In this document: positions 3,901 through 64,000 of the stretch, piece after piece
How positions within the stretch are numbered: the stretch's first letter is position 1
How the letters are laid out: each line of letters starts with the position of its first letter
Source: Brachycybe producta
Lineage: Eukaryota; Arthropoda; Diplopoda; Playtdesmida; Andrognathidae
DNA: 64,000 nt
Assembly (NCBI GenBank): GCA_036925085.1
Contig: JAUPFP010000002.1
Location: 3,060,550 to 3,124,549, forward strand
Direction: 5' to 3'
Position numbers and translations under genes: made by a program
The notes under the pieces: generated by a model
Told to the model about the DNA's origin: nothing
The model's input: only the letters and a program-made list of their open reading frames with translations
Database searches by the model: none

Positions 3901-6900
3901 TAACTCTTTATGTTAAACTTCATTGAGTAACCAAAAAACATCCATTAAAAATACCTAATAATAATTTTAAAAAACCACAATTAAACCACAGTGAAGCCAA
4001 CACATTGACGCACGTGCTGTTTTTTTTCTGGCTTTTTAAAATTATTTTTACGAGCATATTTAAATGGAAGCTTTTTTTTTCTTACTTAGCGTACTCAATG
4101 GAGTTTAACATAAAAGTTAGAAATTCGCGATTTTTTTCGCATATTTTTAAGGCGCCCATTGCACATTGAAAACTTAATATTGGACAACTTTAAATATGAA
4201 AAATAAACATATTGCCGCGACTGACTGTATTTTATAGATTAACATTTTTTCTTTAACACTGGTTCTATGGGCTCAATAGAGTAACGATGCTAGCGCTCTT
4301 TGTGGATATTTTTCGAAGTAATTTTTCGATGTAGCCTCTTAATAAAAATTGAATTGTTTGAATTATGTGTATTCGTTTTTTTACATTGACAGGTGCCAAA
4401 CATAAAGGAAATATTGTTGATTGGCTTTTATCAGTACCAACTAAATGATGCATTGTCGCACTTTGTTTCCGAAATGTCACAAGAGTACAAGATGAACATT
4501 AGGTAATTTAATTGCACTTCAGTTTTACGAGGCCAATGCAATATGAAACAGAAAATAAATGTGTTGTGTAGAGTAGAGTTTTTTTTAAAGAAACTTTAGA
4601 AACGCTACTTAGTCAATGGGGCAATATATGGGCTGCTATAACTGTGGGCCGATATAAATATATCGGCCGTTATAGGGGCGCTGACATCGTTAATACTATT
4701 ACCATTTGCGAAAAATAGTTTTTAAAAATATTTCTAACGTCTTAATTTATATATAAACGGTATTTACAATTACAATTAGTACTCTGCTAGCAGCCAATTA
4801 GGCCTATGGCAGAGGGACATAAAAGTCCATATATATGCAGCATTAAGCATTGTCAAGCACATACACATGCACAATTGCACACAGGGTTGGAAAAAAACAT
4901 GTTTTTAAAAAAAAACATGTTTTATTTAAAAAAAAACATGTTTTTTTTAAAGAAAAAATGTTTTTTTTTTTAAGAAAAAATGTTTTTTTTTAAGAAAAAA
5001 TGTTTTTTATTAAAATAATGCTTTTCTTGTTAAATTCGTACGTTTAATTTTTCGAATTGAAATTGGGATACTAGTTGGTGACTTGTCGTGTACAGTGTGT
5101 GGTGAATTTATTAGAAGAGCAAATGAAATTAGTGGCATAGCTAGGAACGTTCCTAGGATATCTGGTCTTATACTGTAACAGTAATGCTATTATAGGGTGC
5201 CTAATTATGCCAAGTTGACAACACGGTCAGTGGGATTTAGGACAATGTTATATTTATAATCATACTATAAGTATGAGCCCTTATTTTTATCACAGCCCCA
5301 CATTTCGGCACCCAGGACAAATGCCACATCTACGCCAGTGAATGAACTTCTGTTCGTCCCTCCCGATTTCTAATTGCCTGTGTCATAGCCTCCTATAGCC
5401 TCCCATAGATAGTATCTATAGGAGGCTATGCCTGTGTAGTTCTTTATCGGCCATACTTTTTATACTGATATATAAAAATACACCCTATATATATATATAT
5501 ATACATAGCTACAAAATGAACTCGTCTAAAACTTCACTTATAGTATTCATTTTCATATACCATAGTCCCGCTAGAGGCGCCACTTCGAAAACGACGTCAA
5601 AAGTGACCAGCATTTTGGTTGTGCTTGTGAATGGCATTTTTATTCTATAAATCTAATCTAATTTCAGTCTGTACAGAGAAATCACCATGATTGTATGATT
5701 TTAAGTTCATGAATATTTAACTGGCACACTTCTTTAAAAATTGGTTGATTTAAAACAATGTTTTTTTAAAAAAAACATGCTGTTTAAAACAAAATGTTTT
5801 AAAACAGCCAACCCTGATTGCACATATATAAAAACAAAATGAATATACAAATGTCAATCCCACAAAACAAAATTATCTCTATTCACCACTGACTCAGGAA
5901 GAGCGTTTCATTGTCTTATAACTCTAGGAAAAAAACACCAATAATATGAATCTGTCCTAGCAAAAATCTCCGTAATTTTCTTAGAGTGGTCAGCCCTGCC
6001 CATATATAGTGCTTTATGAATATCACTGGACTGCGGTTTAGGACAATCACCACGTGTAATTTTCCCAAAGAATTTCAAACTTAAATCAGCCCTGCGATGT
6101 GCCAAACTATGCCATTGTAGCACAGACAGCATCTCAGTGACACTATCTGTAAATTTGTGACTGCCACAAACAAACCTAGCTGCCTTATGCTGAACCATTT
6201 CAACTGAATGGGTGTGTGTGTGACAGAATGAGGATTCCATACACTGCAGCAATACTCAAGATGCGGTCTAACCAATGCTTGATAGGCAATAGTTTTAACT
6301 TGTGCGGAGCAGGTGCCCAATGTCCTTTGACTAAAATGAAGCATTTGTAGAGCTTTCCCAGTAACAGCATCAATGTGTTTTTTCCAAGAAAGGTCATCTG
6401 TCATTGTAACCCCCAAGTACTTATAACACTGGACACTCTGAAGAATAGTATCATGATTAAGAAAACAAAATTAACTTTGATAATCCGTTGTCTTTCGATG
6501 AAACGCACACAAGAGGAGTAAATACCCGACTCAGTACCTCCTACAACTGCTCTTGTCTGGCAGATCTATTTTTTCTTTGGGTCGCCCGCCAAAAAAAAAA
6601 AACGCTGTTCCAATGGAACATGGTTTGATTTATTTTCGCCTCTTGTGATCGTTTTACAGGAATTTCGACAAGTTATATGAAGGTAGGTTAATTTTATTTT
6701 CTTATTCATGACACCCCTTTAATATTTTATTAATTGTTAGAAATATTTTTAAAAACTTTTTTTCGCAAACGATAATTGTTGTAAAGATGTCGGATGCCCT
6801 ATAACGGTCGATATTTTTAGCCACCGATAGTTATATCGGCCCATAGTTATAGCAGCCCATAGGTATCTCCACCATTGACGTCCGTGGCGCTTTTAAAGTC

Positions 6901-9900
6901 TCTTAACTGAGGGATATGGGATTCGTTTTCGTGATTTGAAAAAAAGTTGTTGGATTACAATAAACTATCACTGTTATGAATACGTATGGAGATGACGACG
7001 CCGCCCTTATGATTGTTCTTATGGTTTCAGCTGTTTTGTTCCTAGCTATCCATACGTAAAGTAAAACCAAGCTATTGCCATCTTTTGAAGTTATACTTTT
7101 ACCTAATAGGACTGCTGACGGGGACGTATTTGGCAATTAATTGAGGGTTCTGTAATTGTGAAAAGGTTAAGAACTCTTGGTCTATACGGGAATGGTTTTA
7201 GGGAGTTGAAGTAAAATGATTGATGTCCAGGCTCAATTGACTAATGAGAGAATTTGAAACTAAACAATTATTTCCAGGGGGATTGATTGGAATTGAATTT
7301 ATTTTGAATCATTTTGCCAATGTAGGCGAGTTTCTGCCAAAGGACATAATACAGACATGTATGCAATAATGGTATGGGCATTGGGCAAGTAGTCGTTTTC
7401 TTCAAGTGCGAGCATGCTTAGGTGTATGAAGTGATTGAGGGCTCAATTGAAGTAAATTTTGGTATGACACGTACGGTCGTTGTTTTATTTGTCGTACAAT
7501 TTCTTTCATTGGCTAATTTAGGGTTGTAAGAGAGTGTATAGATGCATTTTTACATTTCTGTGTTTGCTTCGTTTAGGTATCTACAAGAGTTTGCAGCATT
7601 AGGTACTGCCGGTGGGATTTACCATTTCAGAGACCAAATAAGTAGTGGAGGGCCTGACCATTTCATTTTAATGCATGGTGATGTTTGTGGAGATTTTCCA
7701 CTTGTGAACATGGTCCAATTTCACAAAGATAATCCAAATAAACCACGTATTACCATAATGGTGACTGAGGTAAATATGACTCGCATTACTTGTTAATTAT
7801 ATAAAAAGATTTTTACTAGAGGTGGGACAAATCCTAAATTTTCTCGAATTCAAATCCTAAAAGGTTCTCGAATCTCCCAAATCTCGAATTCTTCATATAA
7901 GAATCCTAAATTATTCATTTTGAAGATACCAATAAATGAAATATTAAATATTAAATTATTATTAATAAAAAAACAAGCGTGTGGCACTCAAGAGTGGCCA
8001 TAACAAGGTGATATTGGTGATCCGGGTACAACACCGAAATTACAACAATCGCCGTTTATTGTTAGTGAACGCTTCTATTGGACGTCAATGGAGTTAAAAG
8101 TAATTTTTACCGCAGTTTTTAACAGTTTTTTTTGGATTCGAAAGATTCGAAAGACGAAAAAAACGCGAAGATTCGAGTTTTTGAATCTCGAATATTTTTC
8201 AAGATTGGCGGGATTCAAAGACTCGAATGTCAAATCCCTAGTTTTTACAGACATTTTTCTACTATAAGAAAGACCCATAAAATCCACTAGGATGCACTTT
8301 TTTTTCATGGAAATTGTTGGCTCTTTTAATATGTACCGCCATTAATATGTTAAGCCCAATAGTTTGCAAATGCAAGTGGTCCATTAAGCGCAGCAGTTCG
8401 TTAAGCACAGTGATTTACAAAAGCCAGTGTGGTCCACTTAACCTAATTGTTAACTTGGCCCAGTGGTTTACTTATCTCGAGGTTAAACTAGCCCAGTGGT
8501 CCACTAAATGCAGTGGTTCTTTAAGTGCAGTGGTTCATTAAGCACAGTGGTCCACTAAGCCCAGTGATTCACTTACAGCTGTGTTCCACTAAGACTTCTT
8601 TCTATCACTGACACTTTTTTTCTGGCAATTGACACTTTCTTCTGTCAAAGGTTAGGTGAGGTTAGATTAGGAAAAAAAGTGTCAATGACAGAAAAAAAAG
8701 TGTCAACTGTAATGAAAATTATTTTCACTGTATGGCCTTTACAGGGCTCTGTAGAACACACAAAAACGAGACAAATTGTAAAATTAAACATGTTTAAAAT
8801 ACTCCTAGAAACAAATCACAATCACCATTTTTTTTTTCGTTTATGGTTTCAGTACTTGGAAACAGGTTTTTTAAAATAAATTTCACATTTTTTTTTAAAA
8901 ATATTTCAAACTCATGTCATGTGAAATATTTCAATGGCACATCACTAATTATTATCTATTTTTGCTAACATGTATACACCTGTTAATTCTTTATGGTTTA
9001 AAATATTTATTTTTGTTTTTTAATAGGCTACACGACAACAATCGCTTCATTATGGCTGTGTTGTGGAAAATAAAGAGAGCCATGAGGTGTTGCATTATGC
9101 TGAAAAGCCGTCAACATTTGTCAGCACGACTATCAATTGTGGTGTTTATATTTGTTCAATTGATATTTTTAAACAAATCGCTGTAGAATTTAGCAAGAAG
9201 CAAGAAAACTATTATTCGTAAGTAAACTATAATTCAATATTTTATATATATAAATTAAGCCAGGTCTGTCTTTCTTTCCTTCCCTGTGTCAGTAACGTTG
9301 TGCAAACAAGGACAAAACGCGTAAGCACATCGGAATTTATAAAAATTTAAATGAACCGCTTTTTTTTTCTCAAGGTCAACATTATGTTGCGCTCTCCCCA
9401 TCCAAGAACCTCATGATATTAAATTGGAGAGGGAAAAAGGTTGGAAAGGGTAGGGAGAGCAAGAGAGACACGTGGAGGTGAAAAAAAGGGGCAGGGGGAA
9501 ACTGAAATTGAAATGAAAGGAGTAAAAAAAGGAACAAACGATGCACATGCGCACACCAGAGAAAATGAAAAACTCATTTTCTCTTTCAAATATAAAAAAG
9601 GAAGAGGATAATAGTAGCAAAATTAAACTAGAATTTATCACGGGCAATTTTGCCCAGCATTAGAATTTCTTTTGCTCCACCCTTTTATGAACGTCATCAA
9701 TTTCTAATTGGTTTGTTACTTAGTCTGACATCATAAAAGGGCGGAGGAAAAGAAATTCTAATGCTGGGCACAATTGCCCGTGAATTTTGCTCCCGTCATT
9801 TATGACGGGTTACCCCACTAGTAATTATATAATTAACTAGAAGCGTGCCCGTCATAAGACGGGGGATTTTGAAGCAGGCGGATCCTGCATGGGTGATGTT

Positions 9901-12900
9901 GCCTGTCGTAGGTCGTTATCCTTTTGAATATAAATATATGTTTAGATATTATATAACAGATGTATACCACCATCTAGCGGTGAAAAGTTATAATACTTAT
10001 CACTGACACAACGTTAGAGCGTTATTACCGTTGGAAACGCCATCTACGGCGTAAAGGGGGGTAACTGGGGACCGCAGCCCCACGACTGCGAGGGGGCAGG
10101 AGGTTTGGAGGGCGCATTTTGGCAGTGCAAAAAGGGGCGCAATGTTTTAAGCAGCAGGGCGTGGCCGGGGGAGGTGCAACTGTTCATTTTTAATATGGGC
10201 GTATCAGGAAACCGAATCAAAAGTTGGCAAAATTACTTAAGAGGCTACATCATAAAATGACTTCAAAAAATCTCCACAAAGAGCGCTAGCATCGTTTTAC
10301 TATTGAGCCCATAGTCATGTGGCAATATGTTGATTTTTTATATTTAAAGTTCTCCAATATTAAGTTTTCAAAGTACAATGGGTACCTTAAATATATGCTG
10401 ATCGAGTGATAGAATGACAAAAAATTGGTAATTGTGGTTATATTTTTAAAAAGTATTTCAAAATCGCGAATTTCTAACTCTTTTAAACTCCATTGAGTAC
10501 GTGCTTACAATCAAAAATCACCTATTAAAATGCTCATAAAAATACGTAAACATAATTTTTAAAAACCAAGCAACTAACCAATGTGTTTGCTTCACTGTGG
10601 TTCAGGGTGGCTGATTTTTTTGATTTTTTTGATTTTTTAAAAAAAAATCAAATAAATCAATTTTTTTTATTGAAATCGGGTTTTTTTTATTTAAATCAGA
10701 TTTTTTTTTTATATGAAATATTAATTTTTTTATGCTGATGTTTGCAAAAATGAGTAATAATAACATTGTTAATTGTTAAGTTGTTAGTAAAATAATTGCA
10801 AAATAAGAAAAAAAATGTTAAGAAACATTCAAATTTGAAAATAATAAGTTTCAAGCACTTTCTTGATTCAATTTCCGTATGTGTGTTCTCTGCTTATAAA
10901 CACAAGCTTTTGCAGCCTTTTCAGTTCCCAGAGCAAATCAGTGTCTCTTTTAAAAAAAAAACAAGATTTTTTACATCTTCATACGATATAAAATTTGTGT
11001 TTTTAAACAGATTGTCAAGTTTTATCAGTGGTGAACAGTGTTAAGTCCACAGTTTTACACATTGGCTGCTAGATGGTTTTATACCATGTTAAGTCCTATT
11101 TCTTCAATGAAGAGAAAAACTTTCAAATGACTCTTCATGTAAAATATAGGTTTGGTGACTTAACACAGTTTACCTCTGAGGCTCTTAAATAGATTACGAT
11201 TGCTGTTTATATCAATGTGTCCCTATAATGATTTCCACCAGTCATTTGGGGATAGTTCCTCAAGCATATCTTCCCAAATAATAATGCATTAACAAAAGGA
11301 ATACCACCCGGCTTTATTTTTTATAAACATAAAGAAAAATGCTGGGAACTGTTTTCTTTTTATTGTATAATTTAAATGTTTAAATAAATATGAATATTTT
11401 TTTTAAAAAAATCATTTGATTTATTTAAAAAAAATCAATTGATTTAAATCACTGCCACCCTGCTGCGGTTTAATTGTGGTTTTTTAAATGTTTTTACGTA
11501 TTTATACGAGCATTTTAATGGATTGTTGTTTTTTCTTACTTAGGCGTACTCAATGGAGTTTAACATAAGAGTTAAAAATTCGCGATTTTGAAATAGTTTT
11601 TAAAAATATAACCGCACTCACCAAGTTTTTGTCATTCTATCACTCGATCAGCATATATTTAAGGTGCACGTTGCACTTTGAAAACTTAATATTGGACAAG
11701 TTTAAATATGAACAATAAACATATTGCCGGTTTATTTTAAAAATTAACATTTTTTCTTTAACATTGGGTCTATGGGCTCATTAGAAAAACGATGTTAGCG
11801 CTCATTGTGGAGATTTTTCGATGTAGCCTCTTAAGAGTTCACGTGTTCACTGTTTTTTACATTTTAAGGTGCCTTTCTATTAATGGAGACAATGGCCATA
11901 ACAAATATGTTATTCGTTTGGAACAAGATATTATCATGCCATTGGCTGGTACCGGAAAGTTAATGGCATATCATACAACCAGATTTTGGAGTCAAATGAA
12001 GACTGCAGGGTAAATATATTATTAAATACTAGCAAAGATGCCCAGCATTGCCCGGGCCAAAATATGAAGGGTTTCATGTTACCCATTGTTCTTAACCCAT
12101 GACCTTTAAAAAAATGTCTATTTTACTTTTCGATTCTTCAGAAACATCTTTGAGCTTTAACAGGGGCGGATCCACATTAGTGCTAATTAGGCTTGAGGTC
12201 AGGGCCCCAAATTTTTAGGGGGCCCCAAGACACAATGCAAAGTATTGTGTAGTTGTTAAAAGAGCGATTTTAGCCTGAAAATAGTAACTACAAATTGTAA
12301 ATTATATTAAAAATCGTAAAAAGGGTCCCAGAAAGAACTCAAGACAAAGGCCCCCACCAGAGACGGACCAGCCCGGGTGGCAAGGCGGCAAATGCGACCT
12401 GCGCCGGTCGTTCTAGGCTCCGGTTCGTCAAGCATTCACTTTCATACACTGTCGAGTGATGCACGTAATGTGTGTTTATACGTATTTCAAAAACTATAAC
12501 ACCTACATTTTTGTAATTTAAGATAATTGTTAACAGTACATTAAAATATACAATTCTAACTATATACTGTATTACTCGAAAATTAAAAAGTTATAAGGAT
12601 AAACAACCCTACAGGAGCCTAACAAAATTGTGAAGGCGTCATGATGCTCTTGAAACTGCGAGGCATTCAAAAACCTCTCAAAACTGGAAGGCCATCAGGA
12701 GCCTCGCAAAGCTAAGAAGCCCCCTAAGCACATAGTAATCGTGAAGCCCTCGGGAACTTCTTAAAATTGGATGGACCTCGAGAGCCTCTTTTGTAACTGT
12801 GAAATGTAAATTTATATTTACCAAAATTTAAAAACTACTTCGATTTCATGCGCGTTTACTACGTTGATGTTTTTTTTTTTACTTATTTGGGCTTACTCAA

Positions 12901-17236: not shown

Positions 17237-18149
17237 ACATTTTCTTTGCTAGAAAGCAAAGGAAAGGAAGCTCACAAGGATCTGGCAATTGATTTTCTTC
17301 TTCGGGGAAATAGCTTTTTATATTCTAATCCCCGGAAGCTAGAAACAAACCACCACACACCCTGAAATTCATTGCATCTTTCCCTGGACCACATCCCGCA
17401 CCGAGCAGCGGGGTCGGTCAAATGATGATAAATGATGAACGATGCGACATACGAGTTGGATTTGTCAAAATGTGTTTTACGACCGGCTGCCCTGCCTGAA
17501 ATTAACTCCCCAATGACGGAGAAATTATGAAAGACAAACACGCAACACCCATGCCTCAACCATTATTAGAACCCGGGAGCCGGGGGCAAATGTTTATATA
17601 CCGATACAAATAAAGGAAATAATATTAAATCATTATAATAATAATAATAATAATAAAACAGTATGTTACTCAGGGTTGCCACAAGGTGATATTCGTGATC
17701 AGAGGGTACCACCGAAATTGCAACAATCGCCGGTTGATTTTGTTAGTGAACGCTTCTATTGGAAATCAATCGAGTTAAAACTAATTTTACCAAAGTTTTT
17801 TAACAGTTTTTTTTTTTAAGTTTAGGATTCGAAAGACGAAAAAAGCGTGAAGATTCCAGTTTTCGAATCTCGAATATTTTTCACGATTCGAGGATTCGAA
17901 TGGTAGACAAAAGTTAAAAAATATCGTCTGTTTAAAGTTGGGTCATTTTCAAACTGACATAAAGTTCGTTTCAAAAGATACCAACATGACAATATACTTA
18001 GTAACACTTTCAAGTTTCTTTTAATTCTGCTCCTGAAAGACAAAATAATTAAAGAGTTCAAGAGGCGTTTAAACTTTTAAAACCACCTCAAGGGGGGTGG
18101 ATTTCTAGCTATACTAGAGGATTGGTGATTTATGGCGTTGAAACCAGTC

Positions 18150-33145: not shown

Positions 33146-33156
33146 ATATCATCTTA

Positions 33157-41500: not shown

Positions 41501-43147
41501 ATGGTGTGGGGATAACGAAACATTACCAGGACTTGCGGAAAAGTGTCTTCAAACTTTTTGTTTTTGAAGTTGAATTCACTGAGAAGTTTTGAAACGAGAA
41601 ACTGAAAAAAAAAAATTAATAACGTAAAATCAACATGGAGTCACGGACTAACACAATCTCATTTAAAGTTGTGCGAATCATTAATTGAATTCGTATTACA
41701 CAATTAAAAAACAAACAAAAAACAAATCAATTTATAAAAAAAAATGCTTTGAAAAATTGTCGGATATTCGTAGCATCTCAATTTGCTTTAAAAGTCTACA
41801 TCACTAAATTACATCGAAAAATATCCGCAAAGAGCGCTTAGCATCGTTTTTCTACTGAGGCCATAGACTTAATGTTACTTTTTAAAATACACAGTTGCAG
41901 CAATATGTTTATTTTCCATATTTAAAGTTGTCCAATATTAAGTTTTCAAAGCGCAATGTGCACCTTAAATATATGCTGAGCGAGTGATGCAATGACAAAA
42001 AATTGGTAAGTGCGGTTATATTTTTAAAAACTTTTTCAAAATCGCGAATTTCTAACTCTTATGTTAAACTCCATTGAGTACGCGCTTGTAAGCAAAAAAA
42101 CATCCTTTAAAATGCTCGTAAAAATACATAAAAATAATGTTAAAAAACCAGAAAAAAATCAGCACATGCGCCAATGTGTTGGCTTCACTGTGGTTTAATT
42201 GTGGTTTTTTAAAAATTATTTAGGTATTTTTACAAGCATTTTAATGTTTTTTTTTGTTTACGAGCACGTTCTCAATGGAGTTTAAACATAAAGAGTTAGA
42301 AATTCGCGATTTTGAAATAGTTTTTAAAAAATATAACCGCACTTACCAATTTTTTGACATTCTATCACTCGATCAGCAATGTATGCAAATATGAAATCTA
42401 AAATATGAAAAATAAACATATTGCCGCCACTGATTGTGTATTTTAAAAACTAACGTTTCTTCTTTAACATCGGGTCTATGGGCTCAATAGAAAAACCGAT
42501 GCTAACCGCTCTTTGTGAGAGAATTCTTTAATGTTTCATAATAGTTAAATTAAGAAATGCGTATATATTTAAAAATATCCAAACACAAATATCATATTTG
42601 ATTCTCAGCAATTATTCTCATTCACACAGAAACCAACATACTTCGAAGATGCTGATGACATCTTTTGCTGAAGGTGAAGATTGAAGTTTATTCAATGGAA
42701 ACGGATACTGGTTCTCGTTCAGAAACTAAAACGAGAAACATCAATAAACGTTTTCAGTTTACGAAACCCAGAATTTCAAAACAAAAAAGAAAGATAACAA
42801 AAAAACCAACGGTAATGAGAGATTTCAGGTTCTTCGGAAACGCAGAACGATCCGACTGCGGTTTCGATTCAGCTTTCGGCTCCTGATAACTCGGACGCCC
42901 GGTAAGCGCCGTCACCATGGCAGAACTAGGACGTCCCATGGAGACTCCAGACAGTCTCAAGTTTGACAACCTGTAACAGGTAAAAAGACGCCACATTAAA
43001 ATAAGATTAGTAACAGCATGTAGGCCAATTATATTACCGTCCTTTGTTACGGCTACTGCTGGATGGTCGTCCGCCAAAATTAGCCACTGAACTTCTCCCA
43101 GCTCTTTTCGGCGTCATACATGATGACGAAACAGATGACTTTCTCAT
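35505..43147 (-). CDS. NDC80: NDC80/HEC1 kinetochore protein (13 exons)
   Basis: Exons in coding order: 43038-43147, 42811-42970, 42642-42725, 41413-41601, 41277-41351, 40500-40584, 40280-40377, 40049-40193, 38644-39086, 38478-38570, 37031-37167, 36859-36961, 35505-35642. The phases close to 619 residues (human 642). The basic serine-rich N-terminal tail (MRKSSVSSSCMTPKRAGRSS) is the expected Aurora-regulated microtubule-binding tail. Exons 2-4 encode the calponin-homology domain (FLNENQYPFPLNKLQ; KRQLQPIGSMHNWPTIVAGL), and exons 5-13 the long coiled coil. Ndc80 pairs with Nuf2 to attach kinetochores to spindle microtubules. The exon 2 donor (ACC|GTTGGT) is weak. The exon 7 donor is either a GC site (AAG|GCAGAT) or a GT six bases later; both keep frame and add or drop two residues. 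A family 1 element starts four bases into the intron after exon 8. Homology in the CH region makes the identification firm. Confidence 0.94.
35925..36682. mobile_element. Family 1 element, copy H (NDC80 intron 12)
   Basis: TTAATAGGCTACATCG to GCTGTAGCCTCTTAA with both arms and a central ACAATTAATCCACAGTG block. A run of about ten C follows the element near 36730. Confidence 0.9.
37197..37573. mobile_element. hAT-like MITE with TAGGGATGGG end, copy d (NDC80 intron 10)
   Basis: TAGGGATGGGCCATTCGAATC begins the unit; TTTTTCGTCTTTCGAATCC and CCGGATCACCAATATG follow as in the other copies. The far tip decays after AAAATTTAGGATTT. Confidence 0.7.
37717..37921. mobile_element. ACAGGCA MITE, copy 7 (NDC80 intron 10)
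   Basis: ACAGGCAATTAGAAAACGG mirrored by CCGTTTTCTAATTGCCTGT; TGACGTCA at 37803-37810; GCTCCGCCC boxes at both shoulders; CACTACAG and a decayed CACCCTACAG beside it. Confidence 0.82.
38209..38370. mobile_element. pogo/Tigger-like terminal fragment
   Basis: CAGTAGAGCGTCAATTATCGG followed by AACTTCGGTTATCGGAAC and, further right, inverted TTCGATGATATGAAC words, as at the tips of pogo-type Tc1/mariner elements. Similar tips lie near 19385-19465, 33680-33710 and 55964-56030. Confidence 0.4.
39267..40044. mobile_element. Family 1 element, copy I (NDC80 intron 8)
   Basis: TTAACAGGCTACATCAC to GTGATGTAACCTCTTAA with both arms. The right TTAA is bases +5 to +8 of the intron that follows NDC80 exon 8 on the minus strand. 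Confidence 0.9.
41788..42531. mobile_element. Family 1 element, copy J (NDC80 intron 3)
   Basis: Both arms present. The left tip TTAAAAGTCTACATCAC and right tip (AGAATTCTTTAA) are decayed, and the right arm lacks part of the GTGCACATTGCAC block. Confidence 0.85.
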
Positions 43148-43675: not shown

Positions 43676-43677
43676 TA

Positions 43678-46160: not shown

Positions 46161-46161
46161 T

Positions 46162-46356: not shown

Positions 46357-46514
46357 ATCTTTGATAGCCTCTCGTCAAGGGGTAAATTTCGGTAAATACT
46401 GTAGATTATAGAATAAAAATATTATGTAAAAAAAAACCTCATAAGAATAATGTGCGTTTTTTTTGCAGGGTTTCTTCTGTTCAATTCAAATTGAATGAAA
46501 TGTAAATAGTTGAC

Positions 46515-49500
46515 ATGATGACTGAAGAATTGCCTGGATTCTCTGGGATAACGATTGTCATATTTATCGCTTGTGGAGTCCTCGTAAGTAACACGTTTGT
46601 CGACGGTTTTTGTAATCAAAAGGTAAGAAATTCTAATCCAAATATGTATGTTAAATGTGTACCGTTTCAGACGTTCATTATCCTGTTTCTGTTTGCAAAG
46701 AGAGAAATTACGCGATTCTCGCTTAAAAACCGACGAGGTCCTCATGTGCCAATTGGCCACGATGCACCAAAGGTAAACTTATGTTATCAACTAGAAAGTG
46801 GAAATAGTTGAAGCTTAGACTAAAGTAATAAGTCAAAGGTTGAAGTCTCTCCTCCAGCCGCTGTGGGATTTCAGAACCCTACATGTTTTACATTTTTTTT
46901 TCTAACAATTTTTTTCTCATTAGGTTGAAAATCGCCTGTGGGCGAAAATTCTTTTTTTTTTGGTTTTGATAAGGAGCCATTTAGCCGATATATGTAGAAG
47001 GTTGTAAACAGGACAGGATTAAGGCTTGGTTGGAGTAGGCAAATGCCAGGGGCATGTTGAAAAAAATGGGGCATATTCTATAATAGAAATGCGCCATAAG
47101 ACCGTAAGCCTTAACCATTTATCGAGGGCATATTTTCTTTTTAGCCCAGGCGCATGTTTATACCTTAAGGGCCTACATCGAAAAATTACTTCGAAAAATC
47201 TCCGCAAAGAGCGCTGGCATCGTTTTTCTATTGACCCCATAGACCCAATGTTGACTAAAAAATATTAATTTTTAAAATACACAGTCACGGCAATATGCTT
47301 ATTTTTTATATTTAAAGTTGTACAATAATAAGTTTTCAAAGTGCAATGTGCACCTTAAATATATGCTGATCGCGTGATAGAATGACAAAAAAATTAGTAA
47401 GTGCGGTTCTATTTTTAAAAAAGTATTTCAAAATCGCGAATTCCTAACTGAATTAAACTCCATTGAATACGCGCTCGTAAGCAAAAACATTCATTAAAAT
47501 GCTCATAAAAATATGTAAAAATAATTTTTAAAAACCACAATTAAACCACAGTGAAGCCAACACATTGGCGCACGTGCTGATTTTTTTCTGTTTTTTTAAA
47601 AATTATTTTTACGTATTTTGACGAGCATTTTAATGGATGTTTTTTTTTTTTTGCTTACAAGCGCATACTAAGTAGAGTTTAATATAACAATTAGAAATTC
47701 GCGATTTTGAAATAGTTTTTAAAAATAGAACCGCATTTACCAATTTTTTTTGTCATTCTATCAGTCAATCAGCATATATTTAAGGTGCATATATGAAAAA
47801 TAAACATATTGCCACGACTGTGTATTTTAAAACTTAACGTTTTTACTTTAAGATTGGGTCTATGCCTCTATGGGCCTAGTAGAAAAACGATGCTAGTGCT
47901 CGTGTAATTTTGCGATGTGTAGCCTCTTAAGATGTGGTGCTCAGTAATAATTATTTTGTGTGTTTTTTATATATATGCTGCCATGGAAAGATAAATAATG
48001 ATGGGGTTATGGCTAAAAACGGTCAGTCTATTTTTAGTGAATAGTTGGCTGGTTTGCGCCATCTTCTGGCTTATTATCTACAGATTTAAATCGTGATTCA
48101 TAACTTTTAAAAAAGTCATGGTTTCTATACATAAGGGTGAAAGAAAACGCGTGTTGCTTAAGAAGGATCGGAGGTTCATGTGAAAATGTGCAAAAATGAT
48201 CAAGAGTCGAAACCCATGTGGTTTTTGACGTTTAAGGGTTTAGGATACATGTTTTTTAACATTAAGAATGCATTGTTTCGGGCATTACATTTTTAAATCC
48301 AACATGCTGTAGGGATATTTCATGCCCCTAGAGGCACCCATGATCACCTCCGAGCTCGTGCTGATGCCAGAACCACATAGCCAATTTCAAGTGCATATTT
48401 GGTTTTTAGAAGTTTTTCGTTGAATTTTCCATTACGTTTTGTTAAATTCTCTCTTGTGTCGACATTTTATTATCTTTACTACAGGCTTTAAGAAGAGAGA
48501 TTGATCGACGTTTGAATAGAATCACGGAGTTGCGGCTGGAGCCACGTTCACTTGAACTCGATCAGAATGCCGAACTCTCAAATGAATCAAAACAAAGTTG
48601 GTTATGAATGTTTTATTGTCGTATAATTAGATGAGGCATTGTTTTAATGACCTAGTAGACAAAATTTTAATTGCAGAATACTTGAACTTTATGAAGAGAA
48701 AACTTTATACTAAATGATGACGATAATATTAATAATCAGAGTATCATTTATTTCGACCACAAAAGAAAAGCACATCTCAATTACAAACAATATTAGACAC
48801 AAATTTAAAAGAACAAAATAAGGGTCCATTTTATACAGGCAGGTGAAGACTACGACACGAGCCCGAGGAAAAAGTCTTTCATTTTATATATACAGGAAAC
48901 ACCGGGGCACAACTTTAGAACTACTAGTGGCATATTCGTTTAGATAAAATGATTGACAGATTTCTTGTTCTAAAAATTGTACACATCTAAGTATTGCTTA
49001 CAGAACAAACGAGAACTGAAAGAGATTCTGGAAAAATATCTTTGGCGAGGATAGTTGAGCGGGAGACCCGTTTGTGAAACGAACGAGCTCTGCGTCAATA
49101 TAAACTGTTTTCTCAGAAAAAAAAACGTTTAAGAGGCTACTTCACAAAATTACTTCAAAAAATCTCCGCAAAGAGCGCTAGCATCGATTTTCTATTGAGC
49201 CCATAGACCCAATGTTAAAGAAAAAAATGTTAATTTTTAGAATACACACAGTCGTGGCAATATGTTTATTTTTTATATTTAAAGTTGTCCAATATTAAGT
49301 TTTCAAAGTGGAATGTGCACCTTAAATATATGCTGATCGAGTGATAGAATGACTAAAAATTGGTAAGTGCGGTTCTATTTTTAAAAACTGTTTGAAAATC
49401 GCGAATTTCTAACTCTTATGTTAAACTCCATTCAGTACGCCTAAATAAGAAAACACATCCATTAAAATGCTCGTAAAAATACCTAAAAATAATTTTAAAA

Positions 49501-52500
49501 AACCAGAAAAAAATCAGCACGTGCGGGGCAATGTGGTTTAATTGTGTTTTTTTTTAATTTATTTTTTAGAGTTTGCGCTTAAGAGCGCATACTCAATGGA
49601 GTTTAACTTAAAGAGTTAAAAATTCGCGATTTTCAAATAGTTTTTAAAAATAGAACCGGACTTACCAATTTTTAGTCATTCTATCACTCGATCAGCATAT
49701 ATTTAAGGTGCACATTCCACTTTGAAAACTTAATATTGGAAAACTTTAAATATGAAAAATAAACATATTGCCGCTACTGACTGTATTTTAAAAATTAACA
49801 TTTTTTCCTTAACATTGGGTCTATGGGCTCAATAGAAAACCGATGTTAGCGCTCTATACGGAGATTTTTTGAAGTAATTTTGTGATGTAGCCTTTAACAA
49901 TATTTCCTGAGTTACTCGGACTCAGATTAGGCTCGTGTCGTGCTCGTCCCTTATTCTTCACTTTCTTGTATAAATGGAACTTAAATGTAAGGCATTTAAT
50001 TTGAATGTTTTTCTTTTTATAGGGAATTTTTCATGAAATGAATTTATTCTATTAAAAATGCTTCATGAGTAAATAAATCTTCATACTTTTATAGAAGCAA
50101 AGTTTCAGTTGATAAAGTTTTTTTTTTTTAAAAAAAATCTGATTTTGCAAATTAAAAATATGCAATCTTTTCAATTTTTGTGTAAATCATGATTTTTGTC
50201 TATAATGTTCTAATTGTTTATGGAAGTTACTTTTCAAAAGCTAATGCCAGTTAACAAACTATTTGAATCCTAAAGCAACATCGCTATGAAGTTAAATGGG
50301 ATGAGATTTTGCTGTCAATTAAAATTAATACATTACGAGGTTCGTTTGGAAAGTTCTCTGAATCAGGTATAGATTTTGCCGCAATCGGCATGACGTTTGT
50401 TACATTTTCAACCGAGATCTTTGCTAGAAACGCACTCAAAATGTCAGCACGACATGTCAAACAGTTTGTTTTTGACAGCCATCACGAAGCCGTCGGTGTA
50501 TGCTTAATATGAAAAATGACGAGGAATAACGAGGTTCGTGCCGTAATAAAATATCTGGTGAAAAAGGGATTCAACGCAACCAATATTAAAGCCGATATTA
50601 ATATACATGTATAAAGTTGGTTGTCGTTTAAACCCTTCGCCAGGTTTATTATCACAAACACGAACTTCGTTATTCTCCATTTTTCGCATTAAGTGTACAT
50701 CGATTGCTTCGATTGGCTGTCATAAACAAACTGTTTGACATATCGCACTGAAATTTTGAGTGCGTTTCTAGCAAGGATGACGGTTGAAAATGTAACAAAC
50801 TTTCATGTCGATTGCAGCGTCATCTATACCCGATTCTGAGAACTTTCCAAACCACCCTCGTATAAGTTTAAAATTTATTCTTTTTTTGGTTTTGTTTTTC
50901 TAGGAACGCCATCTCTGTTGTACAGGATAAAAGCTGTAGATGACATTAAAAGATTCGGTGTGTTTTGTGAGCTTTTGACATCAACCCAATTTTATTACCA
51001 ACCTTTAGATGACATTTTCCACATTTCGTTTCTTCTCTGAGCAGTAGGACACCTGCACAGAGAAGATCCGAGCTGTAGAGAGAGCTGGATGGAGACAGAT
51101 TGTAGTCACTCTTCTGCATGGGGGTGAAATCGATGCAGGAGAGTGGCGGCCATCTCTCTCTCTTCCGGTTGATGCTGATATACATCTTCTCCATCGGTAT
51201 GCCGACAAGAGAAGATGTTGTAGCTGCTGAGAATCGTATAGCTCCTGCCCTATGAAACCTCCGGCCTCTGAAGAGAAGTTATTTACATAAAGACATAGAG
51301 ACAACGCTATTTCTTGTTACAACACTTTTATTCATTCCTTGTAAGAAGTACAGAATACAAGGGTGAATATTAATAATACTAACTGCGAATCCTCAGGCCC
51401 ATGATTTGGAATGATATCTCAAAATACAGGCAAAGGACAAAAACTGAGGAACAAAGAGGAACACGGTCCTTTTATACCTTGGACCTGTGTACACCTGCGA
51501 GGTGTAACCAGGTCCAAGTGACCATGGTCCTGTATGTATCAATCCGCCGCTTGGGCATGAGTCAGAAAGGTGAGTCAGAGAGGAGGGAGGGACGGTTGAG
51601 AGTTGTTTATCCCCCGGGCTATGGTTTTGGCTGGATCACAATTTACAGGGTGTTACAGTTTCTAATAGAAATAGTTGATATGCATTTTTGGGGGCTATAT
51701 TTGTTTTTTCGTTTGTTGGTTTTTCCCCCGTAAATTTACTGAGTTTTCTCCCGAGTTGTAAGCAAATTCCAAATTCGGTGAAAATTCAAGATTTCTTGTT
51801 TCGAATATCAGTGAATCAGTGGAACCCCTACCTTTCAACGCAGTTGGCAATGTTGTGACCTCACATTTTCATAACTCCTTAATCAAATACATGTATTCCC
51901 TAGTCATATTCAACTCAATACAACTTTCACATCAACTCGAGAGCCACGTGGGCAGGTGGGATAATTCCACAGCAAAACCTTGGATTGCGAGTAAACTTGT
52001 CTGCGAGTGTTTTGCAAGATGAGCAAAATTTTTTAATAAATTTTAACGTGATAAACAAACCCTGGTCTTGCAATACGAGTGGTACGTATGCGCGTTGTCT
52101 TTTGAGCGTCACGTGATCACAACTGAGCCGATGGTTCTTCGCTTTCTCTCTCTCTCTCTGCGGGATTGTGGGAAATTCACTTTAATATACGAGTGCTTTG
52201 GATTACAAACACGTTTCTGGAAGAATTATGCGCACAATCCAAGGTTTAACTATATTTGAATAGGGAGTTAAAAGTAATGTGAGGTGACAATATCAGCATC
52301 TGAGTAGGTAGATAGACTTTTGGTTTTTTGTTGCCAGTGTCTGTCGTTTGGTGGCGCCTCTATCGGATAAAGTCCATTTACAGTATATGAAGTTACAATG
52401 TAATTGATTTTTAATTTTTTTTTAAAATTATATTAATGACTTATTTTAAATTTTAAAAATCTTTTTGGCAATCATTGGGTAAGTCTTGACAATATTTTGA

Positions 52501-53945
52501 CAAGAATCTCTCGTGTTTGTGTCATGTTGCAGTTTCCACTTTGTTTCACATGAATTTATAACAGCATATCTGTTTTATAAATAGTTATAAGTTTTGAGCG
52601 GTCGTGTAGTTCAATTTAACCGTTTTCTATCAACTTAAGTTGAGTCGCGTTTCTTTCTACACGTTTGCATATGTTGTGATTGACCTAAATATGTTAGCTG
52701 TTTGCTAATTCTTTTGTTATATTACATTTCAGAGGAAAGAATTCGTGATAAATATCCTGCAACACGCCAAAAGTCTATAGATACGTTACGTTTCTACTTG
52801 ATAACCGTTGTGGTGGGAGCATCTCCTGGAAGTAAAAAAACAAAGCTCATTCATCGCCTCTGTGATGCATATAACCATGCACGGCACAGTCCAAAGGTAC
52901 GGACGTGATTGGAGCAGACCAGGGTTGCGTGATTGAAATATTACATTTTTTAAAGATCTTTTATAGTTATTCATTGCATAATATATAAATGACCAGAGTT
53001 CTGATTTCATTGTTACCTTCGGACGTTACATCTCAAAATTATTTTGAAAAATCTCCGCAAGGAGCTCTAGCATCGTTATCCAGTGTTAAAGAAAAAATGT
53101 TAATTTTTAAAATACACAGTCAGTGGCGGCAATATTTTTGTTTTTCATAATTAAAGTTGTCCAATATTAAGTTTTCGAAGTGCAATGTGCACCTTAAATA
53201 TATGCTGATTGAGTGATAGAATGACAAAAAATTGGTAACTGGGGTTCTATTTTTAAAAACGAATCACGAATTTCTAACCCTTATGTTAAACTCCATTGAG
53301 TACGCGCTCGTAAGTAAAAACATCCATTAAAATGTTCGTAAAAATACCTAAAATAGTTTTAAAAACCCACAATTGGTTTAATTGTGGTTTTTTAAAATTA
53401 TTTTAGGTATTTTTATTTCAAAAAACGGGGGAAAAAATCAGCACGTGTGCCAATGTGTTAGCTTCACTGTGGTTTACAGTGAAGCCAACACATTGGCGCA
53501 CGCGCTGATTTTTTTTTGGTTTTTTAAAATTATTTTTATGAGCATTTTAATGGATGTTTTTTGCTTACGAGCGCGTACTCAATGAAGTTTAACATAAGAA
53601 TTAGAAATTCGCCATTTTGAAATATTTTTTTAAAAATATAACCGCACTTACCAATTTTTTGTCATGCTATCACTAGATGAGCATTTATTTAAAGTGCACA
53701 TTGCACTTTGAACGATCAAAATTGTACAACTTTAAATATGAAAAATAAACATATTGCCGCCGCCGTCTATGGGCTCAATAGAAAACCGATGCTAGCGCTC
53801 TTTGTGGATATTTTTTGAAGTAATTTTGTGATGTAGTCTATTAAACTGTAAACTACTCGCCTAATTTGTGTACTTTTTCTAGGATTTTGGAGCAGATGAA
53901 TACAACCAATTGGTCGGTGTACTTTCAGAACTGCAACAAATGTGA
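46515..53945 (+). CDS. C1orf43: C1orf43 / NICE-3 family membrane protein (6 exons)
   Basis: Exons: 46515-46583, 46671-46772, 48485-48596, 50904-50957, 52733-52896, 53883-53945. They join in phase to 187 residues, shorter than human C1orf43 (about 253), with the missing part at the C-terminus. Residues about 11-31 form one membrane span (ITIVIFIACGVL then TFIILFLF). It is followed by the family signature FAKREITRFSLKNRRGPHVP and GHDAPK, then LRREIDRRLNRITELRLEP. Exon 4 (LLYRIKAVDDIKRF) and exons 5-6 (FGADEYNQLVGVLSELQQM) match the conserved second half. Two ATGs are adjacent and the first was taken. The exon 3 donor is weak (A|GTTGGT), but the next exon matches the family in exactly the required phase. 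The human protein is reported at Golgi and mitochondrial membranes; its biochemical function is not settled. An ACAGGCA MITE ends 158 bases upstream of the ATG. Confidence 0.88.
47165..47930. mobile_element. Family 1 element, copy K (C1orf43 intron 2)
   Basis: TTAAGGGCCTACATCG to GATGTGTAGCCTCTTAA. The right arm lacks the CATTGCACTTTGAAAAC segment, a short deletion. Confidence 0.9.
49129..49897. mobile_element. Family 1 element, copy L (C1orf43 intron 3)
   Basis: TTAAGAGGCTACTTCAC to GTGATGTAGCCTTTAA with both arms well kept. The centre is shortened relative to copies F and K. Confidence 0.9.
50336..50860. mobile_element. mariner element relic with long inverted arms (C1orf43 intron 3)
   Basis: CGAGGTTCGTTTGGAAAGTTC at the left is mirrored by GAACTTTCCAAACCACCCTCG, with TA on both sides. 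A plus frame at 50517 reads MTRNNEVRAVIKYLVKKGFN then ATNIKAD and stops: the N-terminus of a mariner (SETMAR-type) transposase. The arms are inverted over about 200 bp, including ACAGTTTGTTTTTGACAGCC. Nearly the whole transposase is deleted. Confidence 0.8.
51315..51657 (-). mobile_element. Solo LTR (minus strand, C1orf43 intron 4)
   Basis: On the minus strand it begins TGTAACACCCTGTAAATTG, has a TATA box (AAGGTATAAAAGGACC), then AATAAAAG, and ends TTGTAACA. TTTCT lies next to both ends (one base offset on one side), compatible with a 5-bp target duplication. No internal region remains. Confidence 0.75.
51838..52515. mobile_element. CCATTACC-type TIR element, copy 3, with insertion
   Basis: Blocks GTGACCTCACATTTTCATAA, ATTCAACTCAATACAACTTTC, GGTGGCGCCTCTATCGG and CAATCATTGGGTAAG match the elements at 14870 and 19475. 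About 300 bases from 51970 (CTTGGATTGCGAG...ACAATCCAAGG) form an inserted inverted repeat of another type. Confidence 0.5.
53021..53844. mobile_element. Family 1 element, copy M (C1orf43 intron 5)
   Basis: Left tip decayed (GGACGTTACATCTC), right tip GTGATGTAGTCTATTAA. The centre is duplicated: the CACAATT...GTGGTTT block occurs in both orientations twice. The TTAA ends 38 bases before the last C1orf43 exon. Confidence 0.85.
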
Positions 53946-54318: not shown

Positions 54319-54324
54319 AATAAA
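54319..54324 (+). terminator. AATAAA polyadenylation signal after the C1orf43 homologue
   Basis: Canonical AATAAA about 375 bases past the stop codon, before the next family 1 fragment begins at about 54545. Confidence 0.45.
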
Positions 54325-54544
54325 TGTAATTAATAATTTAGCCAAAAGTGTTTCATTTACTAATCTAGATTCTAAAGGTAGATTTTTAGGTTACACTTCT
54401 CTTCTTACATGTGTGTAAAGTTGCATTACAGAAATTGTGGGATGTTTATACATCTGACCGATATTTGGCTGGAATTCTGCCTTGCGTAAAGTTTCTAGTC
54501 ATTTTACAGAGTACAAACGGTTTTTTTGTTGTTGTCGTTTTTGA

Positions 54545-55135
54545 GTTCGCCCAAATAAGAAAACAAGCATCCATTAAATTGGATTGGTAAGTGCGGTTCT
54601 ATTTTTAAAAACTATTTCAAAATCGCGAATTTCTAACTCTTATGTTAAACTCCATTGAGTACGCGCTCGTAAGCAAAAAAAACATCCATTAAAATGCTCA
54701 TAAAGATCCTTAAAAATAATTATAAAAAAAAACAGAAAAAAATCAGCATATGCGCCAATGTGTTGGCTTCACTGTGGTTTAATTGTGGTTTTTTTAAATT
54801 GTTTTTACGTATATTTACGAGCATTCTAATTGATGTTTTTTTTTTCATAATGTTTAACATGAGTGTTAGAAAACTCGCGATTTCGAAGCAGTTTTTAAAA
54901 ATGTAACCGCACTTACTAATTTTTTGTCATTCTATCACTCGATCAGCATATATTTAAAGTGCACATTGCACTTTAAACTTGAACCATCAAAATTGGACAA
55001 CTTTAAATATGAAAAATAAACATGTTGCGGCGCCTGTGTATTTTAAAAATTAACATTTCTCTTTAACTTCGGTAGAAAAACGATGCTAGCGCTCTTTGCG
55101 GAGATTTTTCGCAGTTATTTTGCAATGTAGCCTCT
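54545..55135. mobile_element. Family 1 element, copy N, partial
   Basis: The left arm starts late (GCCCAAATAAGAAAAC); the right arm is complete up to GCAATGTAGCCTCT but lacks the final TTAA. It lies in the C1orf43 3' flank. Confidence 0.8.
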
Positions 55136-56181
55136 CTTTCTGGTAATGAACGTTCTGACGACGTTATTTGCAAATCACTAATTTGCTCAACAATTTCAAC
55201 AAACAAAAAAACATTTTTAACAATTTAAACAAGAAAATTCCGAAATGTGGTCGACATATTCTTGTTTTATGCTTCGCTCCTTCACTCTGATGCAATATTC
55301 CAAGTTGAATAATGCCGGCAGCGATTGCTCTATTGACCATTTCCAGAGGCATCTCCGGGAAAGCATGCTCAATTCCCAGTTGAAGCTCGACTAAATTGGC
55401 GTTGTAGCCTAGTCTTGAGCTAGTCGAGTCGAGCCTTGGGCTAGGGTAATAGAAGTGAAGGGGCGAAGCACGTAACAAAGAATACAATGACTAAATTTCA
55501 AACTTGTATAGCTTCGGAGCCCTGCTATTACAAGCAAGTTTTACAAATTACAAGTCAGCTATTCGTTCTTTAAAAGCATCTTCTTCGGAAAATGAGTTAA
55601 AAGTTGCAATTTTTCTATTGCAATCTATTGTAGAGGAGCCAACTAAACCGATATTGTGAATAGTTAAAACGGTTTTTGCACTTTTGAAAAGCTTAGCAAA
55701 GTAAGCCACGAATTTTAATTTTAAACTCATTCCACCCCCCCTCCAAAAAAAGTTTTTTTTTTTAAATTGTGCCAATCTTCCAGCCGAGGTGCGATATATG
55801 TGTATACATACGCTTGTATATGGTCATCATCATTTCCTGCACTTTTCCTCCCCCCCCCGAATTCTCCACTCCTTTCGATCTTTTGACAAACTCCCAGAGA
55901 CCCCCACCACGCCTCCATGTTTGTATACGATAATATAATATAAAATATATATGATTAAAAAAAAACGCCTATCCGAATTATTCGGAACCCCGGATTACCG
56001 AAATCCGAACACAATCGAGATTCTACTGTATTTCCGAACGACATCCAAAATCACAACGACAAATTCACATAAGGTAAGAATACTTTTATTTACTTTAAAT
56101 AATGCACAATTCATTAATTTTACAATACATTTATTAGAAACGTATTTCTAAACATCTTTAAAAAATAAGTCTTTTCTTTGG
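55136..56181. other. C1orf43-FAM174 tail-to-tail gap
   Basis: Contains a pogo/Tigger-like tip at about 55964-56030 (CGAATTATTCGGAACCCCGG; CAGTAGAATCTCGATTG on the minus strand, before TA), a C-rich run at 55850, and no conserved frame. The reverse frames of 60-107 codons have no domain. Confidence 0.4.
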
Positions 56182-56187
56182 TTTATT
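56182..56187 (-). terminator. AATAAA polyadenylation signal after FAM174
   Basis: Reverse-strand AATAAA about 80 bases past the FAM174 stop codon. Confidence 0.5.
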
Positions 56188-56264
56188 CATTTGGATAAAA
56201 ATTCGTGAACGTCATTCTTTCTGTTGCACAACAAACACATCATAATGGAAAGAGGTTGTACACA

Positions 56265-58824
56265 TCAGTTCCTTGAATGATTGGTTGCTTCGAAGACGGT
56301 CGTTTCATCTTCGTCGTCTTGGTCCAGTGGCGTCATTTCTAAATCTCCGTTTCGTGCTATGACACCGTACTTATGCGATTTAGATCGCTTACGTCGCAAC
56401 CTTAATTAATGGAAGAAGAACAAATTAAGTGACGACTTCGAAATCGAAAGTAAGTCATACGTTTTCACTGTTATGTCTTACGGCTGGGTCACACTAATTA
56501 GATACAGTGTTTAATTCAAATTTTTTTCCCGATTGTAGGCGCTGCAATCGTTTTTTTTTTTTCGGTTTTCTAATGGTTTTTGTCAGGCAAGAGCATAGAA
56601 TACACGTCGTCCATCTTGTTGTTTTGAGCAGACGACAACGAGACAAATGAGTGTTACTATATGGTGTTCCTAAACTTGCAAGAAATAGTCTCGCAATCGC
56701 TCAATTAAATTACAGTAAAGTGCAAAATGCAATAAAAAGTATTGCTCTTTAAGTGCTCGCTTTATATAAATTTTGAAAAAGGTCCTTCTATTTTTAAACA
56801 AGGTTCAAAATCGTTCGTTTTTTAACTCCATGTTAAATCCCATTGGACTAAAAAACCGTCCCACAAACATTTGAAGAACTCTCGTGAAAACGACTTAGAA
56901 CAATAACAAACGAATCAGCACATACCATTAATTTACTGGCTTCGCGCTTTTTTATAATGTTAAATATATTCCAGAAAAGTTAGGATATGTACATATATTT
57001 AAAGCCTCGGGGCTTTGAACTTATAAACTAGAGGTGGGACGAATCCTAAATTTTCTCGAAACCGAATCCAAAAAGGTTCTTGAATATCCCGAATCTCGAA
57101 TCCTTCACATAAGAATCCTATCTTAATCATTAAGAAGAAACAAATAAATGAAATAATAAATATTAAATTATTAATAAGAAAAAACAGTGTGGCCCTCAGG
57201 GACGCCACAAGGTGATATTGGTGACCCGGATACAACACCAAAATTGCAACAATCGCCACATCTATTGGACGTCAATGGAGTTAAAACTAATTTTATCAAC
57301 GTTTTTAAGAGCCTAGATCCACGTCCATCTTGTTGTTTTCAGCAGACGACAAGGAGACAAATGAGTGTTCTTATATGGTGTTACTAAAACTGCAAAAAAA
57401 TCGCTTCACAATCGCTTATTTAAAATACAGTAAAGTGCAAAATGCAACAAAAAGTATTGTTCTCCACGTGCTCGATTTATATAATTTTTGAAAAGGTCCT
57501 TCTATTTTTAAAGTAGGTTCAAAGTCGTTCATTTTTTAACCCCACGTTAAATCCCATTGGCCCCAAAACCGCCCCCCCACAAACATTTGAAAAACTTTCG
57601 TTAAAAACGATTTAGAACAATAACAAAATAATTACCACATATATTCATGTATTGGCTTCGCGATGTTTCCTTTTTACAAATTTTGAAAAGGTCCTTTATT
57701 TTTTAATAAAGTTTAAAATCGTACGTTTTTTAACTCCATGTTAAGTCTCATAGGACTAAAACACCGTCCAACAAAAGTTAAGAGAACTCTCATTAAAAAT
57801 GATTTAGAGCAATCAGATAAATTGGCACGTACTTACACGTGTTTATTGCCTTCAGGATTACTCCTTTTTCTAAATTTTAAAAGGGCTTTCTATTTTTAAA
57901 TAACATTTAAAATCTTACATTTTTTTTAACTCCATGTTAATTCCCATAGGACCAAAACACCGTCCCACAAACATTTGAAGAACACCCTGTCACCCATTAA
58001 AAACGACTTAGAACAATCACATAATAATTAGCACGTGCATTAATCTATTGGCTTCACGGTGTTTCCTTTTTATAAGGTTAGCACGCGAAGTTATTTTTCT
58101 ATTAATTATTATGTGACTTCGAACCGGGAGAAAAAAACGTTAAAAAACCGTTTTTCAATCAACAACGATCGCAGTGCCTACATTTGAAGAAATTTTGAAA
58201 TAAAAGCTATATCTAGGCTCTTAACAGTTTTTTTTAGGTCAGGATTCAAAAGATTCGAAAGACAAAAAAAAACGCGAAGATTCGAGTTTTCGAATCTCGA
58301 ATTTTTTTTCTTTGAAGATTCGCAACGGGATTCGAATGTCCCATCCCATTCCTAGTATAAACACAACCGACATAATCGAGCCTGTATTAAAAAAATACGG
58401 GGCCTTAGTGAAACAGCATGTTGACGTCGCTTTGCAAAGCGCCTGAAATTACAAACAAAAAAAAAGTATCAGCAGTTATATGTATATTTTTAAATCCTTA
58501 CCTAACTGATCGAATGCCGAAATAGACGATGACGATAAGGGTAAGACCCATGAGGACATAGAACGCTCTCAAAGCGGCTCCTCCTCCGTTACGTCCGTGG
58601 CCAAAAACGTAATCACCTGGAATGAGAACGTCGGAAACAACGGTGTTGTTATGATGTGACTCGGTGTTTGCTACTACGGTCGTAGTATTGACTTGATTAA
58701 AGGGCGTCGAAGGAGGAGTAGAAGAGGAGTCGTCATTCGTACTGTTTTCTTCGAAGGTTTTTAGAAAACAACACGACAAAATGACACTAAATAAGAAGAA
58801 CATGCGTTCTGCTAAGAGCCACAT
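56265..58824 (-). CDS. FAM174: FAM174-like single-pass membrane protein (2 exons)
   Basis: Exons: 58502-58824 and 56265-56400, joined in phase 2 to 152 residues. The start at 58824 (MWLLAERMFFLFSVILSCCF) opens a clear signal peptide; an upstream TTG in the same frame is not used. The ectodomain is Ser/Thr/Asn-rich with several N-glycosylation sequons (NST, NTT, NNT). One membrane helix follows (ALRAFYVLMGLTLIVIVYFG), then a basic stretch after it (RLRRKRSKSHKYGVIA), and an acidic tail (LDQDDEDETTVFEA). This order, and the DxDE(D)ETTVFE-type C-terminus, are those of FAM174A/B. FAM174B has been linked to Golgi integrity; function here is inferred. The intron holds two family 2 copies and a hAT-like element. 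The gene is divergent from RPS15, with 1.35 kb between the start codons. Confidence 0.88.
56587..56970. mobile_element. Family 2 element, copy 3, partial (FAM174 intron)
   Basis: Starts inside the left end (CAAGAGCATAGAATACACGTC; TTAA lost) and runs through one internal unit to CTGGCTTCGCGCTTTTTTATAA. The right half is missing. Confidence 0.75.
57029..58353. mobile_element. hAT-like MITE with TAGAGGTGGGAC end, copy e, split by a family 2 element
   Basis: The left part 57029-57304 opens TAGAGGTGGGACGAATCC; the right part 58225-58353 ends CGAATGTCCCATCCCATTCCTA. Removing 57305-58224 and one TTAA restores the family sequence TTTTTAACAGTTTTTT. Confidence 0.82.
57305..58224. mobile_element. Family 2 TTAA element, copy 2, nested in a hAT-like MITE
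   Basis: TTAAGAGCCTAGATCCACG to ATATCTAGGCTCTTAA, with the same four tandem internal units as the copy at 24204-25112. Its exact TTAA duplication can be read against uninterrupted MITE copies at about 8122 and 17798. Confidence 0.9.

Positions 58825-60171: not shown

Positions 60172-64000
<3,829 letters not shown>

Follow-up and report, generated by a model that had tools for sequence, protein, structure and literature searches.

Kolobok transposons insert at TTAA targets and have 5'-RR termini, according to the available text of two reports (PMC9587614; PMC6004289). In the KolobokE lineage the transposase is accompanied by a downstream lambda-exonuclease-like nuclease, and a CCHC finger is reported for KolobokE and a few other lineages (available text of PMC9587614). 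The direct precedent for miniature inverted-repeat transposable elements (MITEs) alongside Kolobok is the T2-MITE/Kolobok system of Xenopus, in which full Kolobok elements measure 6.8-13.9 kb (available text of PMC6004289). Three families of TTAA-associated repeats, named F1, F2 and F3, are present in a 64,000-nucleotide stretch of the Brachycybe producta genome, which is referred to as the window (C2:3060550-3124549; the genome comprises 295.3 Mb in 442 contigs). F1, F2 and probably F3 are, with good probability, MITEs of the Kolobok superfamily, which would be moved in trans by transposases of the KolobokE type or by close relatives of these. A preliminary description of the window had proposed one transposase behind the three families and did not name Kolobok, which is the superfamily that fits them.

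The resemblance to the Xenopus T2-MITEs includes the TTAA target, the existence of several MITE subfamilies with a short shared tip and the presence of Kolobok transposases in the same genome. The tip is different, being AGGRR in the Xenopus T2-MITEs and GAG here, and so is the protein, since Xenopus Kolobok transposases carry THAP whereas the proteins of two loci described below, L062 and L065, show a C-x2-C...H pattern towards the N-terminus, with a YqaJ nuclease downstream (for Xenopus, available text of PMC6004289).

The window contains 29 copies of the TTAAGAG motif where 11.2 would be expected, and none of 100 shuffles reached 29. Pattern searches of the genome, which give positions for the first places only, found 2145 exact copies of the 14-base F1 end (TTAAGAGGCTACAT) and 2100 of the 14-base F2 end (TTAAGAGCCTAGAT), with no copy of the reversed control in either case. 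The F3 13-mer has 62 genome copies versus 56 for its reversed control, so that this count by itself is no evidence for F3; the same repeat as in the window copies of F3 is present at seven of the eight fetched F3 loci. The ends of the three families were found where the preliminary description had placed them, and the families exist as it proposed, F1 and F2 by their genome counts and F3 on a weaker case. Within the first 150 bases, the median divergence from the consensus amounts to 6.7% in F1, 4.0% in the left end of F2 (F2L), 6.7% in its right end (F2R) and 11.3% in F3, which, having the highest value, looks like the oldest family; many of the loci were picked through an exact end pattern, which biases one end per locus. 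The genome total would predict about 0.46 exact F1 ends in 64 kb, and the window has eight, so it is a dense F1 cluster.

The duplication of the target was read by joining the flanks of paired F1 or F2 elements and searching the sequence collected for uninserted copies of the repeat. The F2 element at 57305-58224 corresponds to a single TTAA in six empty-repeat matches, which represent five distinct places (L019 and L020 overlap), and the F2 element of L053 to a single TTAA in three uninserted matches. For the F1 element of L007 a single TTAA is seen in two matches, both from one overlapping stretch (L017, L056), and the F1 element of L033 gave mixed matches, with TTAA retained in four of the seven displayed. 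Since the uninserted repeat copies carry one TTAA, F1 and F2 duplicate TTAA on insertion, and the earlier view of both as non-autonomous TTAA inserters holds.

Ends were collected for F1 (57), F2L (14), F2R (25) and F3 (24 rows, several of which are chance matches), and a second end set comprised F1 54, F2L 14, F2R 25 and F3 13; consensus ends were drawn from both. The three bases G-A-G after TTAA are retained in 88/96/95% of the 57 F1 ends, in 100/100/100% of the 25 F2R ends and in 100/100/93% of the 14 F2L ends, the tip being part of the mismatch-tolerant pattern by which the ends were collected. At the fetched F3 loci, the GAG ends had been selected by the search pattern, and the opposite ends carry GAA in six of six readable cases (L026, L029, L030, L031, L032 and the window end at 4588); the opposite tip is broken by F1 sequence in L027 and was not found in L028. 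GAG is thus no fixed mark of F3, and the shared GAG tip proposed for all three families stands for F1 and F2 (88-100% per base) and fails for the opposite F3 ends. The dinucleotide GA follows TTAA directly in the end consensus of F1, F2 and F3, which agrees with the 5'-RR termini of Kolobok.

Beyond the tip, F1 and F2R are collinear over bases 5-70 (about 66 bases) when anchored at the terminus, with a score reached by none of 3000 random sequences and, under a stricter local alignment, by 3 of 1000. F2L has only its first 16 bases in common with F1 and F2R. F3 has little in common with either past the tip: out of 3000 random sequences, 76 and 77 score as high as its tip against F1 and F2R, and 2225 and 128 as high as its bases 5-70. 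An inner box recurs as GCGCTAGCATCGTT in F1, GGCGCTGCGATCGTT in F2R and, with weak support, GCGCTGACATCGTT in F3, for which the stricter local alignment was equalled by 30 and 55 of 1000 random sequences in the comparison with F1 and by 21 and 37 in that with F2R, without correction. The families had been described as having unrelated interiors, which does not apply near the end of F1 and F2R; F3 is linked to the others only through its tip and a weakly matching box.

The candidate source of transposase is a group of coding elements that match PF20700, a model that we infer, from the architecture of the L062 and L065 proteins, to cover Kolobok transposases. The genome contains 53 PF20700 matches, and 13 of these are free of stops and lie in open frames of 686-1530 amino acids. 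The 967-amino-acid frame of L062 contains PF20700 followed by the YqaJ nuclease, and L065 is arranged likewise; YqaJ is absent from the PF20700 frames of L063, L064 and L066. In an alignment of five PF20700 proteins, which are 35-82% identical to the first one, so that several lineages coexist, C356, C359, H372 and C374 (CCHC) and C513 are invariant in all five, and CxxH (CTNH) is present in four, among them L062 and L065. The placing of the CCHC residues after the first D is our own reading of the alignment. In their predicted features (DDE transposase, CxxH, CCHC and downstream YqaJ), L062 and L065 are in line with the KolobokE type, in which the DDE-type transposase has CxxH, the CCHC residues follow the first D and a lambda-exonuclease-like nuclease lies downstream (available text of PMC9587614); the comparison with published KolobokE elements covers the protein layout.

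A further PF20700 open frame (L066:1445-3811, 789 amino acids) has no YqaJ and misses the C of CxxH, and is possibly a tamed transposase gene. A CA/TG-rich repeat of degenerate units, which generates spurious long open frames (window 29657-30178, L033, L062 and L068), adjoins several KolobokE copies upstream and also occurs within an F1 copy.

The right terminus of the KolobokE elements is defined by five copies (two in C134 and one each in C119, C333 and C259), in which homology downstream of the transposase ends exactly at ...CTTCACAACCCTCTTAA (...CTCTTAA). Past this point the flanks differ: C134 and C333 continue into 14-base satellites that run in opposite directions, C119 into a satellite variant and C259 into a simple repeat of another kind. 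The flanking sequence is similar in the two C134 copies, which may go back to a single insertion that was later duplicated, and the C119 copy may be related to them. Read inward, the right end is TTAAGAGGGTTGTGAAG, starting with TTAAGAG, and these 17 bases have 43 copies in the genome and none in the control. The end lies 4.0-5.6 kb downstream, facing inward, at 7 of 38 PF20700 loci (the 53 matches merged by hand), where about 0.04 were expected. In L090, which has no listed PF20700 match nearby, the first 153 bases or so are kept at 77% identity and the sequence then differs, so this stretch is the shared part of the end. C107, which holds L062, belongs to the same family as the copies with the established end, being 97-99% identical to L069, L071, L073 and L075 over 453-485 bases.

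Three other candidate ends were dropped: TTAAGAGCCTAGAACTC as the left KolobokE end, because similarity extends further left in C7, C14 and C333; TTAAAGG, because homology continues beyond it; and TTAAGAGGCACAAATT beside L066, which has two copies only. Four of the five KolobokE right ends (L078, L084, L085, L087) lie within short satellites that contain TTAA in nearly every 14-base unit, in both orientations, and such TTAA-rich satellites may be insertion sinks.

The KolobokE end was compared with the MITE ends with TTAAGAG itself excluded, against random sequences and against the 54 of 142 TTAAGAG sites that were left after removal of 88 family-like ones. Its bases 8-70 are collinear with F1, with a score that none of 3000 random sequences and none of the 54 unrelated sites attained, and this match holds alike for C134, C259 and L090. 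An inner box, GCTNGCATCGT, is common to both near base 50; it reads GCTCGCATCGT at base 51 in C134, C259 and L090, and its counterpart in the F1 consensus is GCTAGCATCGT, from base 49. In addition, AGAGGCTACA, which is part of the F1 tip, is found inside the KolobokE end at base 142 (C134, C259) or 148 (L090); any 10-mer of the F1 tip was found in 27 of 20000 random sequences, in a test devised after the match had been seen. The preliminary description had suggested looking for an autonomous element that matches TTAAGAG and 10-15 further bases at its ends, and the KolobokE right end answers this in part, sharing with F1 TTAAGAGG and a collinear 60-base pattern and no identical 20-mer.

One F2 end is related to F1, and the F1 end is related to that of the coding element, so the proposal of one transposase, or of a set of closely related ones, is plausible for F1 and F2; F3 is connected with them only through the tip and a weak match of the box. 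F1 and F2 are probably best filed as non-autonomous elements of the Kolobok superfamily, with F3 a weaker member, and the KolobokE relatives are the likely transposase source for F1 and F2. Sola3 transposases also target TTAA, and the preliminary description had named Sola3 for this reason; derivation of F1, F2 and F3 from Sola3 elements is nevertheless improbable, since the collinearity of F1 with a KolobokE terminus of the same genome leaves no need for a second superfamily.

Several observations weigh against the Kolobok assignment. The similarity of F2R to the KolobokE end is marginal, as equally high scores were obtained with 17, 54 and 64 of 3000 random sequences and with 2, 3 and 0 of the 54 sites. 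Past the tip, F2L does not resemble KolobokE, and F3 shows no resemblance in end-anchored comparison. No autonomous element was found to end exactly like F1 or F2, and PF20700 was never seen by eye within 15 kb of exact F1 ends at the 100 places listed, all in C1, out of 2145. YqaJ was read in L062 and L065, which are outside the five copies that define the end, the own end of L062 is unseen, and the left KolobokE terminus was not reached in the copies compared. Finally, 12 whole F1, F2 and F3 elements gave no match at E 0.001 in 25 KolobokE-related loci (52,864 bases), so the MITEs are not simple deletion products of those KolobokE copies; the lack of shared body sequence lowers the confidence in the Kolobok assignment.

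An explanation that also stays within Kolobok, and whose odds overlap those of the broader assignment, is that the families depended on separate Kolobok-type partners, whose ends differed slightly. GAG would then be a tip that they have in common without pointing to a single transposase. This explanation comes close to an even chance. In its favour, the similarity of F2L to F1 and F2R is confined to the tip region, that of F3 to either hardly extends past the tip, several PF20700 lineages coexist in the genome, and full-length Kolobok subfamilies of Xenopus differ in their longer ends (available text of PMC6004289). Against it stand the collinear bases common to F1 and F2R, which exceed a tip. 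More tentatively, a single KolobokE lineage with a large multi-part end (GAG tip, box at about base 50 and second tip-like site at about base 142) may have cross-mobilised several MITE families, including at least F1 and F2, each of which reached thousands of ends, with the F1 tip representing an inner KolobokE site brought to the terminus.

The piggyBac transposons are a further TTAA-duplicating group. They are abundant in the genome, with 93 PF13843 matches, 63 of which, by hand count, lie in contig C1 at 5.5-18.4 Mb. Both ends are TTAACCC at all eight inspected loci, which form three families by their ends, whereas F1, F2 and F3 start with GAG or GAA. The poor fit of the GAG end to piggyBac, already remarked in the preliminary description, is thus borne out, and piggyBac was rejected as mobiliser; that the three families are piggyBac derivatives with unusual ends is very improbable, given also that the F1 end resembles that of KolobokE.

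Other sources were set aside. Long pairs of F1 ends (L033-L041) are, by eye, nested copies, host genes and simple repeats, with no transposase frame, and no such frame was seen by eye in 20 stretches around F2 ends without an exact partner (L042-L061), several of which are usual short F2 copies with an altered second end. A THAP-type source was rejected, as the repeated family opened among 106 THAP matches (L067) is a short element that has no TTAAGAG ends. This element of about 0.9 kb, with 41-bp inverted ends and a THAP N-terminal exon, is found at L067:1065-1949 and at window positions 16-381 and 61842-62380; at least 10 THAP matches on several contigs have a span like that of L067 and a similar score, and capture of a gene exon by a small transposon is possible.

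Under the Kolobok assignment, F1, F2 and F3 would move by cut and paste into TTAA. KolobokE-type transposases of the same genome, or close and possibly lost relatives of them, would act on the MITEs in trans. The recognition signal would be the tip (TTAA)GAG(G/C)CTA combined with the inner box GCTNGCATCGT near base 50, and a transposase that binds these motifs could mobilise all three families.

The three families are most likely ordinary non-autonomous followers of a Kolobok-type element and not a new class. Their significance is that abundant arthropod TTAAGAG MITEs would be tied to a nuclease-carrying Kolobok lineage, for which one terminus is obtained in this host, and that the tip and box provide end motifs testable for transposition; otherwise the coding and the non-coding elements look like ordinary partners. 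No published description of the TTAAGAG terminal motif was found in a search that left Repbase and most subscription papers outside. The positions of the copies in the window are collected in Table 1.

Table 1. F1, F2 and F3 copies, end pieces and uninserted repeat copies in the window
Feature	Position	Strand
F1 copy, both ends (TTAGGAG... / TTAAGAGGCTACATC...)	3616..4342	
F3 copy, F3 terminal repeats at both ends; left GAA, right GAG	4588..6906	
First uninserted copy of repeat hosting F2 57305-58224	8074..8185	+
F1 ends around 1.6 kb (enlarged or nested copy)	10237..11834	
Uninserted copy of repeat hosting F2 element of L053	15027..15108	-
Third uninserted copy of repeat hosting F2 57305-58224	17755..17867	+
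F2 copy, 909 bp; left end TTAAGAGCCTAGAT, right end TTAAGAGGCTAGAT	24204..25112	+
F1 copy, 1115 bp	26507..27621	
F1 copy, 758 bp	35925..36682	
Second uninserted copy of repeat hosting F2 57305-58224	37252..37358	-
F1 copy, 778 bp	39267..40044	
F1 copy, diverged; second end incomplete	41788..42525	
F1 copy, 766 bp	47165..47930	
F1 copy with long inverted arms	49129..49897	
F1 copy; first end incomplete	53027..53844	
Pieces of F2 right and left ends	56499..56740	+
F2 copy, 920 bp, within another repeat; empty repeat copies have one TTAA	57305..58224	+
F3 end heading to window edge	63776..63872	+

Host genes were also encountered. An exon-like frame on the reverse strand of the window (38629-39123) matches the loop region of NDC80, and gustatory receptor exons of the trehalose-receptor type, which agree with an arthropod host, are present in L048.

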